Assembly: GCF_009905435.1 (NCBI RefSeq)
Contig: NZ_JAAAMT010000017.1
Span: 1-64,000, forward strand
Length of the DNA: 64,000 nt
Direction: 5' to 3'
From: Pseudomonas sp. R5(2019)
Lineage (GTDB): Bacteria; Pseudomonadota; Gammaproteobacteria; Pseudomonadales; Pseudomonadaceae
The notes beneath the pieces are model-generated. The model ran no database searches, was not told where the DNA came from, and saw nothing but the letters and a program-made list of their open reading frames with translations. Positions 12,640 to 29,918 of this stretch are shown piece after piece (the first letter of the stretch is position 1; each line of letters opens with the position of its first letter). The translations under genes were made by a program, and so were the position numbers.

Positions 12640-15249
12640 TTAAGCTTGAACAACCGGGATGTTGGCGTTCGCAGCGGCTTCACGGAACTCGGCGATCTGG
12701 TCGAAGCTCAGGTAGCGGTAGACGTCGGCCGCCATGCTGTCGATCTTGCCAGCGTACTCCATGTACTCCTCGACGGTCGGCAGTTTGCCCAGGATGGACG
12801 CAACAGCGGCAAGCTCCGCCGACGCCAGGTACACATTGGCACCATCGCCCAGGCGGTTCGGGAAGTTACGGGTCGAAGTGGAAACCACGGTGGAGTTCGG
12901 CTCAACACGTGCCTGGTTACCCATGCACAGCGAGCAGCCCGGCATTTCCATGCGCGCGCCGGCCTTGCCGTAGATGCCGTAGTAGCCTTCTTCGGTCAGT
13001 TGGTGAGCGTCCATCTTGGTCGGCGGCGACAGCCACAGACGGGTTGGCAGCTGACCCTTGACCTGCTCCAGCAGTTTACCGGCAGCGCGGAAGTGACCGA
13101 TGTTGGTCATGCACGAACCGATGAACACTTCGTCGATCTGCTCGCCCTGGACGGTCGACAGCAGACGCGCGTCGTCCGGATCGTTCGGCGCACAGAGCAC
13201 AGGCTCATTGATGTCGGCCAGGTCGATCTCGATGATTTCGGCATACTCGGCATCGGCGTCGGCGGACAGCAGTTCCGGGTTGGCCAGCCAGGCTTCCATC
13301 GCCTGTGCACGACGTTCCATGGTGCGCGCATCGCCGTAACCTTCGCTGATCATCCAGCGCAGCAGGGTGATGTTCGACTTCAGGTACTCGGCAATGGCTT
13401 TTTCCGGCAGCTTGATGGTGCAACCTGCAGCGGAACGTTCAGCCGAAGCGTCGGACAGTTCGAACGCTTGCTCGACGGTCAGGTCGTCCAGGCCTTCGAT
13501 TTCCAGGATGCGGCCGGAGAAGGCGTTGATCTTGCCCTTTTTCTCGACGGTCAGCAGGCCGTTCTTGATGCCGTAGTAAGGGATGGCATGGACCAGGTCG
13601 CGCAGGGTAATGCCCGGTTGCAGCTTGCCCTTGAAGCGAACCAGTACCGACTCCGGCATGTCCAGCGGCATGACGCCGGTGGCTGCGGCGAAGGCGACCA
13701 GGCCGGAACCGGCCGGGAACGAGATGCCGATCGGGAAACGGGTGTGCGAGTCGCCGCCGGTGCCGACGGTGTCAGGCAGCAGCATGCGGTTCAGCCAGCT
13801 GTGGATGATGCCGTCGCCAGGACGCAGGGACACGCCGCCACGGGTGCGGATGAAATCCGGCAGGGTGTGGTGGGTGGTGACGTCGATCGGTTTTGGATAG
13901 GCAGCGGTGTGGCAGAACGACTGCATGACCAGGTCAGCGGAGAAGCCCAGGCACGCCAGGTCTTTGAGCTCGTCACGGGTCATCGGGCCGGTGGTGTCCT
14001 GGGAACCGACGGTGGTCATCTTCGGTTCGCAGTAGGTGCCAGGACGTACGCCTTTGCCTTGCGGCAGGCCGCACGCCTTGCCGACCATTTTCTGTGCCAG
14101 GGTGTAGCCCTTGCCGGTGTCGACAGGTGCTTCAGGCAGCTTGAACAGATCGGTTGGGCCCAGGCCCAGCTCGGCACGCGCCTTCTCGGTCAGGCCACGG
14201 CCGACGATCAGCGGGATACGGCCGCCAGCGCGGACTTCATCCAACAGCACCGGGGTCTTCATTTCGAAGGTGGTGATGACTTCGTCGGTACCGTGCTTGC
14301 ATACTTTGCCAGCGTGCGGGTACAGGTCGATCACGTCGCCCATGTGCATGTTCGACACATCGAATTCGATCGGCAGGGCGCCGGCGTCTTCCATGGTGTT
14401 GTAGAAGATCGGGGCGATCTTGGAGCCGAAGCAGAAACCACCGCCGCGCTTGTTCGGCACGTAAGGGATGTCGTCGCCGAAGAACCACAGTACCGAGTTG
14501 GTGGCCGATTTACGCGAGGAACCGGTACCGACCACGTCACCGACGTAGGCGATCGGGAAGCCCTGGCCGCGCATTTCTTCGATTTGCTTCATGGGGCCGG
14601 TGACGCCTTGCTCGTCCGGCACGATGCCGTCACGGGCCATTTTCAGCATGGCCAGGGCGTGCAGCGGGATGTCCGGGCGCGACCAGGCGTCTGGAGCCGG
14701 GGACAGGTCGTCGGTGTTGGTTTCGCCGGTGACCTTGAAGACGCGCAGGCTGATCTTGTCGGCCAGGGTCGGACGCTTCTTGAACCACTCGCCGTCGGCC
14801 CAGGATTGCAGCACGGCCTTGGCGTTGACGTTGCCCGCCTTGGCTTTTTCGGCCACGTCGTGGAAGGCGTCGAACATCAGCAGGGTGTGCTTGAGTTGTT
14901 CAGCGGCAACGCCAGCCAGCTCGGCGTTGTCCAGCAGCTCGACCATGGTGGCGATGTTGTAGCCGCCTTGCATGGTGCCCAGCAGCTCAATGGCGCGGGT
15001 TTTGTCGATCAGGGGGGAGGTCGCTTCGCCCTTGGCGATAGCGGACAGGAAACCGGCCTTGACGTAGGCGGCTTCGTCCACTCCAGGTGGAACGCGATTG
15101 GTGATCAGGTCGACGAGGACAGCTTCTTCGCCGGCCGGGGGATTCTTCAGCAGCTCGACCAGGCCTGCGGTTTGTTCGGCGTTAAGCGGCTGGGGCACGA
15201 TACCCTGGGCGGCACGCTCTTCGATGTGTTTGCGGTAGGCTTCAAGCAC
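12640..15249 (-). CDS. acnB: Bifunctional aconitate hydratase 2 / 2-methylisocitrate dehydratase
   Basis: 869-residue aconitase B, converting citrate to isocitrate in the TCA cycle through a [4Fe-4S] cluster. It can also act on 2-methylaconitate in the propionate route. Domain order is that of AcnB: HEAT-like domain, swivel domain, then catalytic domains. Cluster cysteines are visible in [13 protein letters not shown] and [11 protein letters not shown]. The start is GTG at 15249 ([14 protein letters not shown]), with GAGGG 9 nt upstream and the usual 869-residue length; the ATG 16 codons earlier would lack a ribosome site. The roughly 250-nt upstream region on the same strand contains nested inverted repeats (15369-15506) that could regulate it. 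Confidence 0.97.
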
Positions 15250-15368
15250 AGTTATTACCCTCATCAGTGGTCCCAAATGGGTGTCCGGGACGCTCATCCG
15301 GAAATACCAGTACCCATGCGCTGCGAGGCTTTATGAGCCACTTAGCCAGGGTTAAAGGCATTTCCTCC

Positions 15369-15506
15369 AGAAGCTGCTTTCAAAGTTTTACGCCTGCAGA
15401 ACGGGAGCTGATGAGGGCTGGTACGGAAGACTTGCGTGTCAAATACTCCGTACCAACGCCGTTCTGAAGGATCGACTGTGCTCGTGACGCTTTGAAAACA
15501 GCTTCT
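15369..15506 (-). ncRNA. Candidate structured leader of acnB (or unlisted small RNA)
   Basis: Three nested helices are visible: outer 15369-15385 with 15490-15506 (17 bp), middle 15397-15404 with 15459-15466 (8 bp), inner 15419-15427 with 15447-15455 (9 bp, loop 19 nt). The single irregular pair of the outer helix is C-A if read on the plus strand but G-U if transcribed on the minus strand, so the minus-strand RNA would pair fully. That places it in the acnB 5' leader, 120 nt before the GTG. The whole gap 15250-15656 (406 bases) otherwise shows only the two divergent promoters, which I could not pin down. Alternatively the repeats are DNA operator sites. Confidence 0.4.
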
Positions 15507-15656
15507 AACGGACATTGGTGCCTTACGAAAGGCCGGCTGATTCTACGGGAAAAACTCGATAAAGGTAAGTTGGCTGAGCAGACTTGTGAGGTGACCGCGG
15601 TTAGACAAAGGGCTAACATGGCGGCTTGTCAGATTTCCCCAGCTGCTTTTTTGCCC

Positions 15657-16124
15657 ATGTCCAATCAATCCATCAAGACGCCGTGTGTCGGTCTGTGTTC
15701 AACCGTCTATGGTGATCTCGTATGCCGCGGCTGCAAGCGCTTCCACCACGAGGTCATTCACTGGAACGGTTACAACGACGATGAAAAGCGTGCGGTGTGG
15801 TTGCGCCTTGAGCAATTGCTGGTGCAGGTGATGACCGCCAAGCTCGAAGTGTTCGACGCCGGCAAGCTGCGCCTGCAACTGGAGCAGCGCAAGATCCGCT
15901 TCGTCGAGCACCAGTCGGTGTATTGCTGGGCCTACCAGCTGATCGCCCGCGGGGCGCGGGTGATCAACCAGCTGGAGGCCTATGGCATGGTGCTGCTGCC
16001 GGAGTTTCGCGGCTGGGAGCTTCCTCAGCTGCGCGATGCCATTGATCGGGAATTTTTCCTGCTGTCAGAAGCGCACTACCAACGCTACATCGCCCCCGGG
16101 TTTCTCAAGGATGCCCTCGGGTAA
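15657..16124 (+). CDS. DUF1289 domain-containing protein
   Basis: 155-residue cytoplasmic protein whose N-terminal 50 residues are a DUF1289 domain, with the cysteine pattern CVGLC and CRGCKR and the WNGY motif, possibly a small metal-binding site. The remaining 100 residues are helical and unassigned. Function unknown. ATG 15657 begins the conserved SNQSIKTPC segment; an ATG at 15618 in frame is an alternative. Its position divergent from acnB is as recalled for PAO1 (PA1788). Confidence 0.85.
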   Translation: MSNQSIKTPCVGLCSTVYGDLVCRGCKRFHHEVIHWNGYNDDEKRAVWLRLEQLLVQVMTAKLEVFDAGKLRLQLEQRKIRFVEHQSVYCWAYQLIARGARVINQLEAYGMVLLPEFRGWELPQLRDAIDREFFLLSEAHYQRYIAPGFLKDALG

Positions 16125-16201
16125 GCGGATGATTTCCATCTGATCGCCGATGATGCGGGGCCGTAACGTTTCTCTTGAGTTCGCAAACACAGGAGAACCG
16201 T

Positions 16202-29581: not shown

Positions 29582-29658
29582 GCGCCCGTAGCTCAGCTGG
29601 ATAGAGCATCCGCCTTCTAAGCGGATGGTCGCAGGTTCGAGTCCTGCCGGGTGCGCCA
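29582..29658 (+). tRNA. tRNA-Arg (anticodon TCT)
   Basis: 77-nt cloverleaf with encoded CCA. Acceptor stem GCGCCCG / CGGGTGC (one G-U), anticodon loop CTTCTAA, T-loop TTCGAGT. Reads AGA and AGG. First of three tRNAs in the order Arg-His-Leu. Confidence 0.97.
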
Positions 29659-29699
29659 ATAGGCAGCTTTGGCACAAGTAACGAAGTAAACGCAATATG

Positions 29700-29775
29700 G
29701 TGGGCGTAGCTCAGTTGGTAGAGCACAGGATTGTGACTCCTGTTGTCGTGGGTTCGATCCCCATCGTCCACCCCA
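29700..29775 (+). tRNA. tRNA-His (anticodon GTG)
   Basis: 76-nt cloverleaf with encoded CCA. Anticodon loop ATTGTGA, T-loop TTCGATC. The base before it (29699) is a G that can pair with the discriminator C as the extra G-1 typical of tRNA-His. Confidence 0.97.
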
Positions 29776-29833
29776 TATTCCGAAAGGCGCCCGATTTAAT
29801 CGATCTGGCGCCTTTGCTTTAAAAGCTTCACAT

Positions 29834-29918
29834 GCGGACGTGGTGAAATTGGTAGACACACTGGATTTAGGTTCCAGCGGCGCAAGCTGTAAGAGTTCGA
29901 GTCTCTTCGTCCGCACCA
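29834..29918 (+). tRNA. tRNA-Leu (anticodon TAG)
   Basis: 85-nt class II tRNA with a long variable arm (CGGCGCAAGCTG) and encoded CCA. Anticodon loop TTTAGGT. Reads CUN codons, mainly CUA and CUG. Confidence 0.97.

Follow-up and report, generated by a model that had tools for sequence, protein, structure and literature searches.

IRP1 is an aconitase-family protein that acts through the iron-responsive element (IRE), a CAGWGH loop on a 5-bp stem with a bulged C. Leaders that sequester the ribosome-binding site (RBS), either as riboswitches or as protein-responsive leaders such as those of r-protein genes, are a known kind of control element; riboswitches are usually found at several genes of one pathway across taxa, and a distribution at one gene in one family resembles that of protein-responsive leaders. 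The Pseudomonadales leader motifs sucA-II, rne-II and Pseudomon-groES are listed in a table of Weinberg 2010 (PMC2864571), in the main text of which the strings 'aconit' and 'acnB' are absent. As described in PMC4150767, RyhB acts at the RBS of Escherichia coli acnB, and apo-AcnB binds the 3' UTR of its own mRNA, where it counters RyhB-induced cleavage. PMC2851614 describes acnB as encoding a main TCA-cycle aconitase and as a target of PrrF in Pseudomonas aeruginosa, where PrrF represses it and deletion of prrF derepresses it. The first-pass annotation of the locus reported here knew of no described leader RNA for Pseudomonas acnB, and none was found in the open-access literature searched, nor in the main texts of PMC8297930, PMC8632094, PMC2864571, PMC6321483 and PMC4448311.

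The window analysed is a stretch of 64,000 nt from Pseudomonas sp. R5(2019) (assembly GCF_009905435.1, contig NZ_JAAAMT010000017.1, positions 1–64,000). Nested inverted repeats had been noted in it between acnB and the gene on the other flank, which encodes DUF1289, and they are present as described: an outer repeat of 17 bp (15369–15385 with 15490–15506), the helix P2, with eight contiguous pairs and a 3-bp extension past one mismatch, and the hairpin P3 (Table 1). The sole irregular pair of the 17-bp helix had been read as a wobble on the acnB strand, and it is indeed U·G there and an A·C mismatch on the opposite strand. Folding of 15340–15530 gave a z score of −6.69 for the acnB strand and −4.24 for the opposite strand, with 0/200 shuffles as good in either case, and across 47 leaders the domain z was −6.5 versus −6.3 on the two strands, the acnB strand being better in 28/47. 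Since the domain folds about equally on both strands, the strand is assigned from the wobble pairs and the position of the gene. The inter-arm spacer folded alone, with the arms removed, has a mean z of −2.5 and lies below −2 in 34 of the 47 leaders. The family-wide conservation beside acnB, the covariation of the inner helices and the wobble-type changes described below strongly support the earlier proposal that the 5' leader of acnB folds as a structured RNA. The element reaches past 15369–15506 to include promoter-like boxes, a 5' hairpin, two further structured domains and the RBS.

Between the arms of P1, the RNA runs through CGUC–ACG, the anti-start segment AGCACAGU, P2, P3, the anti-Shine–Dalgarno (anti-SD) segment CCCUCAUCAG, P2' and CGU–AAAA, and 3' of P1 it continues through D2, the D3 hairpin, the SD CUGAUGAGGG and the GUG start. 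The start of acnB is placed at this codon because GTG is kept in 165/165 acnB genes read; an upstream in-frame ATG of the long acnB open reading frame was rejected, as it falls out of frame in leaders that are one base shorter. The inter-arm spacer varies from 43 to 226 nt. In four leaders (L082, L127, L129 and L136) it is longer by some 50–120 nt, which may represent a further hairpin domain. D2 contains a GGC-loop-GCC hairpin and covaries as a domain of its own; it is missing, to judge from the spacing, in several genera in which the distance from the arm to the GTG is around 66 nt.

Table 1. Parts of the acnB leader in the window, ordered 5' to 3' along the acnB strand
Feature	Position	Strand	Basis or remark
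-35-like box TTACCT of putative acnB promoter	15563..15568	-	consensus match only
-10-like box TAGAAT	15540..15545	-	consensus only; predicted transcript start around 15533
5'-terminal hairpin GCCUUUCGUAAGGC	15520..15533	-	GCC-loop-GGC kept among leaders
P1 5' arm GAAGCUGUUUUCAAAG	15490..15505	-	14 of 16 pairs invariant among 157 pattern-selected leaders
CGUC + ACG, 5' side of internal loop and short helix above P1	15483..15489	-	near-invariant; 97–100% per position (157 leaders), invariant in alignment A1
Anti-start segment AGCACAGU, complementary to the start-codon region ACUGUGCU	15475..15482	-	
P2 5' strand	15459..15470	-	covarying helix
P3 hairpin	15417..15457	-	covariation
Anti-SD segment CCCUCAUCAG, perfect complement of acnB SD	15408..15417	-	
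P2 3' strand	15393..15404	-	inverted repeat and covariation
CGUAAAA, 3' side of short helix and internal loop	15386..15392	-	97–100% per position, 157 leaders
P1 3' arm CUUUGAAAGCAGCUUC	15370..15385	-	inverted repeat, leader comparison
D2, second structured domain	15300..15365	-	four pairs at E<0.05, tree-aware test
D3, GUCCC...GGGAC hairpin just upstream of SD	15270..15291	-	one pair at E 0.02
Ribosome-binding site as a whole	15245..15267	-	
acnB Shine–Dalgarno region CUGAUGAGGG, also predicted PrrF target	15258..15267	-	
Start-codon region ACUGUGCU	15245..15252	-	GUG start at 15249–15247
acnB, aconitate hydratase 2	12640..15249	-	TIGR00117 1520 bits, PF11791, PF06434, PF00330

As for the 5' end of the leader, a TTAACT/TTACCT-type −35 box separated by 17 nt from a TAGAAT-type −10 box is found in 82 of the 92 leaders with enough upstream sequence, the −10 box ending 28–34 nt (median 32) before the first P1 arm in these 82, and a GCC-loop-GGC hairpin lies at most 45 nt upstream of the P1 arm in 91 of 94 non-redundant leaders. 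A generic promoter scan listed no promoter at 15540–15568. The promoter-like pair upstream of the fold would fit transcription of acnB starting upstream of 15369, and in lineages with a short 3' part a promoter would hardly fit between P1 and acnB. A terminator scan of 15000–16200 found no terminator-like site on the acnB strand, the sole candidate being on the plus strand at 15677, and a transcription attenuator with an intrinsic terminator was rejected, as no hairpin plus U-run is present on the acnB strand of this interval. The same result argues against a reading in which an enzyme such as RNase III cuts the leader at P1 and releases a discrete RNA of around 140 nt that acts in trans like PrrF; we consider this reading very unlikely although CCCUCAUCAG resembles the PrrF seed CUCCUCAUCAG and lies exposed in the fold.

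The leader is found in nearly all sampled genomes of the genus and in most of the family sample. Within the genus, 298 genomes were sampled and the leader DNA query matched 293 of them at E<=0.01; the remaining five are also without an AcnB match at E<=1e-20 and are therefore probably assembly gaps. In the family sample, matches came from 79 of 99 genomes, representing 16 of the 19 genera. Among acnB leaders located by protein, those of g18 retain P1, those of g7 (L154 and L159) have a modified P1 with the end pair changed from G-C to A-U and pair 14 broken, and P1 is absent from four loci of g5 and one of g3. The g5 leaders (L145, L148, L151 and L153) carry a different long leader, alike among themselves, with the SD and start nearly the same. 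In the order sample (293 genomes, 19 with a match in all), a two-mismatch pattern matched six genomes outside the family, and the AcnB start motif was absent from these six loci in up to 3 kb read for each. A covariance-model search of the class with strict filters matched three of 369 genomes, two of them in the family; the third, outside the family, is a weak match with an E value of 0.03 (L202, G886:C83:2004-2065). An exact-match scan of GTDB genomes found at least 120 stretches, and all 80 matches listed are titled Pseudomonas, Stutzerimonas or Pseudomonadaceae. In 73 of these 80, the acnB start follows on the same strand at a distance of 165–392 nt downstream, and the second arm lies in the interval; two more (L246 and L248), missed by the motif, encode VLVAYRKH where the acnB start is expected; 75 of the matches listed adjoin acnB and the other five end at the edge of the stretch. 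The element has a conserved place upstream of one gene on the same strand, as a cis-regulatory leader should, whereas the spread over genes and taxa usual for riboswitches is not seen, only acnB and only this family being represented in the samples searched.

In its own genome the element is single-copy, and a dispersed repeat or MITE was rejected on this ground; plasmid-borne copies were not found at E<=0.01. At the gathering threshold, Rfam matched only three tRNAs in the whole window, which form a cluster at 29582–29915, and Rfam 15 gave no match for 15200–15600 at E<=10; a known Rfam RNA family was rejected, as no covariance model matched the element.

The helices differ in how far they vary. 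The pattern used to collect P1 permits change at pairs 3 and 8 only and matches 157 of 165 loci, so that the per-pair counts inherit this selection. The eight loci outside the pattern are one at a contig end (L111), two of g7, four of g5 and one of g3, and because of these identities the near-invariance of P1 is a fact of the sample and not of the pattern alone. The variants within the 157 leaders are U-A or U·G at one pair (95/62) and a change from A-U to G·U in three leaders. The first-pass annotation had named covariation across species as a check on the helices; the inner helices do covary, whereas covariation cannot test the 17-bp helix because it hardly varies. In alignment A1, which comprises 44 of the 94 non-redundant leaders, picked for similar layout, and takes its structure from the window row, there are 160 two-sided changes versus 62.5 (s.d. 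8.4) in shuffles, 87.2% standard pairs versus 80.8% and a covariation score of 0.182 versus 0.096, with 0/500 shuffles reaching any of the three. Two measures were weaker: 46/500 shuffles reached the tally of pairs showing any two-sided change, and 6/500 reached the number of pair types. Relatedness alone can exceed the shuffle null of this test, but this explanation of the excess is disfavoured because controls with the structure slid along A1 stay at 26–81 two-sided changes. Such changes occur in five of the 11 pairs of P2 (helices 3 and 4), and changes on both sides occur in 14 of the 17 pairs of P3 (helix 5). A tree-aware test restricted to the structure (79 leaders, with a purpose-built substitution-placing simulation as the null, not R-scape) gave six of 92 pairs at E<0.05: one in P3, four in D2 and one in D3 (dn86–103, E 0.02), with E 0.0009 for the P3 pair; no P2 pair reached E<0.05 in this test. 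An unrestricted scan of all pairs in the same number of leaders gave one pair below E 0.05. RNAalifold on A1 recovered little of P2 and placed the base of the inner arm slightly differently, so that the arm as modelled may be closed by CGUC with GGCG or by ACG with CGU. Taken together, the inner helices covary as RNA, which is the behaviour of a structured leader.

The arms could instead be two operator sites for a DNA-binding regulator, as their sequence is almost fixed across the wide range of spacer lengths. The changes that they tolerate, however, break the repeat as DNA with mismatches, whereas in the RNA of the acnB strand they form wobble pairs; the inner helices covary as RNA, and the own genome contains, at two mismatches, eight further arm sites versus five with a reversed-pattern control; we regard such a DNA-level role as highly improbable.

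Going beyond the repeats first noted, the predicted fold leaves complements of the acnB SD and of the start-codon region single-stranded. In the window, CCCUCAUCAG complements the SD perfectly, and a single G·U occurs in the pairing of CGAGCACAGU with the start region ACUGUGCUUG. Of 143 distinct leaders, 88 contain an exact complement of their own SD 8-mer, where 0.48 are expected, and 118 contain a complement of their own start 8-mer within the first 30 nt of the spacer, where 0.13 are expected. The expectations come from a dinucleotide shuffle, and the counts, taken from related leaders, are not independent events. When one G·U is allowed, the longest SD complement averages 8.4 nt versus 5.7 nt in shuffles (94 leaders). 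This sequence complementarity provides the contact with the RBS that an expression platform requires, at p<=0.05 in 62 of the 94 leaders and p>0.05 in the other 32. Lineages that keep P1 with a missing or weak anti-SD include g15 (Stutzerimonas), g17 and g18, and within the genus of the window the same holds for L109, L119, L122, L167 and L170. An earlier duplex-energy test gave p<0.05 for the SD in 65 and for the start in 111 of the 143 leaders; we think that this test is weak because free duplex folding joins distant pieces. In the domain fold of the leaders that have these segments, the mean unpaired probability is 0.82 for the anti-SD (n=57) and 0.77 for the anti-start (n=81), compared with 0.43 for the whole spacer, and both segments are therefore mostly unpaired, as expected of strands meant to pair elsewhere.

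Genus g13, represented by two species, shows a compensatory change, with AAAGAGGG as the SD and CCCTCTTT as the anti-SD; its spacer is only 43–44 nt, and CCCTCTTT occupies the loop, 9 or 10 nt long, of a GGAA/UUCC hairpin. A further variant pair, GATGAGGT with ACCTCATC, occurs in L087. The covariation of the clamp rests on this genus and L087, because the RBS pairs are invariant among the 79 leaders, a set selected to have the anti-SD word intact. In g6 (P. oryzihabitans and relatives), L091 and L108, too, a hairpin loop carries the SD complement, and L113, L115, L121 and L152 have this complement at the same position as L108. The five acnB leaders without P1 (g5 and g3) have no complement beyond chance (p 0.42–1.0 for the SD and 0.47–1.0 for the start), and four of the five carry the same SD. 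Two g7 and two g18 loci, with P1 present, are likewise without an SD or start complement beyond chance.

The same SD is a predicted target of PrrF. The own genome has two PrrF copies, and PrrF was found in 40/40 family genomes tested, covering all 19 genera, with 39 over the cut-off. One of the two prrF copies lies at 83337–83486 (minus strand) on the same contig, beyond the window and around 68 kb from acnB. Folding within a short seed window predicts pairing of the PrrF seed CUCCUCAUCAG to the SD of acnB at −21.9 and −22.4 kcal/mol, and the corresponding energies are −23.0 in g18, −25.1 and −21.9 in g6, −19.2 in g10, −17.7 in g15 and −15.4 and −12.1 in g13. The g13 PrrF retains the seed CUCCUCAUCAG although the acnB SD has changed, whereas the cis anti-SD tracked the SD, and this single evolutionary case separates a cis clamp from a PrrF site. 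It argues against a passive reading, in which the structured leader protects the mRNA and shapes the access of PrrF, and the complementarity reflects selection around the PrrF site. The presence of PrrF in every family genome tested, its predicted pairing with this RBS and the repression of acnB in P. aeruginosa, described in PMC2851614, favour such a reading; against it, besides the g13 case, the anti-start is a separate conserved segment and the P1-less leaders of the PrrF-bearing genera g5 and g3 have no cis complement, and we consider it doubtful.

We propose that the element is probably a family-specific cis-regulatory 5' leader RNA that clamps the acnB RBS in competition with the ribosome and PrrF, and that it probably controls the level of iron-dependent aconitase B made. 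Comparison of the leaders shows a rigid P1 with a near-invariant internal loop that closes a covarying P2–P3 arm, and in most leaders this arm exposes two strands, one anti-SD and one anti-start. These strands may clamp the RBS either as a pseudoknot, which would keep P1, P2 and P3 intact while both exposed strands bind the RBS, or as a nested alternative fold, in which P1 and P2 melt. Translation initiation would then be set by the occupant of the RBS: the clamp, the 30S subunit or PrrF, the sRNA of iron starvation. The pseudoknot is preferred because P1 is transcribed first and because versions with the anti-SD in a hairpin loop exist. For the leader of the window, the nested clamped fold is less favourable than the P1 fold by 9.5 kcal/mol, and for this reason only the pseudoknot version would clamp well there.

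A bistable switch, with P1, P2 and P3 formed in a translation-ON state, an RBS-clamped fold with P1 broken as OFF, and a P1-stabilizing factor turning acnB on, would draw on the apparently near-equal energies of the two nested folds. In the 50 of 94 leaders with the exact anti-SD word these differ by a mean of −1.2 kcal/mol (s.d. 5.2), with the P1 fold better in 25/50 and 34/50 within 5 kcal/mol, on totals that are mostly −100 to −145. A 16-bp P1, however, would form before the RBS is transcribed and be slow to melt, and the position of the anti-SD in a hairpin loop in g6, g13 and L108 suits a pseudoknot with P1 intact, so that we hold such a switch to be possible but somewhat unlikely.

For the clamp proposed here, the invariant P1 and internal loop may, more tentatively, be the receptor for a trans-acting protein or ligand that sets it. 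A protein such as AcnB seems likelier than a metabolite because the element is found at one gene in one family, and AcnB would be an attractive first candidate by analogy with the binding of E. coli apo-AcnB to its own mRNA. Autoregulation of this kind, with iron-poor apo-AcnB binding P1 and the internal loop of its own leader and setting the RBS clamp as a bacterial counterpart of IRP1, agrees with this restricted distribution in the samples searched, with P1 and the loop remaining near-invariant while other helices drift, and with the E. coli precedent in PMC4150767. IRE-like CAGWGH hairpins, however, occur in 0/94 leaders, and the acnB genes of g5 and g3 lack the element; we judge AcnB autoregulation unlikely. 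The fuller version, in which apo-AcnB on P1 and the internal loop would set a two-part SD/start clamp competing with PrrF, as an independently evolved counterpart of IRP1–IRE, is somewhat less likely still. With a family-wide cis clamp, iron or citrate metabolism would receive a second input that does not depend on PrrF, and in this widely studied group the leader makes it possible to test aconitase self-regulation directly in bacteria.

Compared with known systems, the leader would resemble IRE/IRP1, if the AcnB hypothesis holds, in combining the aconitase family with translation control through a 5' leader; it differs in having no CAGWGH hairpin in any of the 94 leaders, and identity with the IRE was rejected on this basis. 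With r-protein-type leaders and riboswitches it shares a structured leader at a single gene, an anti-SD and a conserved core, and it differs from them in matching no Rfam 15 family and in carrying two separate complements, the anti-SD and the anti-start. Like the Pseudomonadales motifs of Weinberg 2010, it is a lineage-restricted structured RNA found by comparison. The PrrF sRNAs (Rfam RF00444) present a near-identical antisense core, CCUCAUCAG, against the same acnB SD; PrrF is trans-acting, whereas the leader would act in cis and tracks the SD in g13, where the PrrF seed does not. The control of E. coli acnB concerns the same gene, the same iron logic and a control point at the RBS, with PrrF here in the role of RyhB; in E. 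coli, however, the protein-binding element is in the 3' UTR, whereas in Pseudomonas the structured element is a 5' leader with a built-in complement of the RBS.
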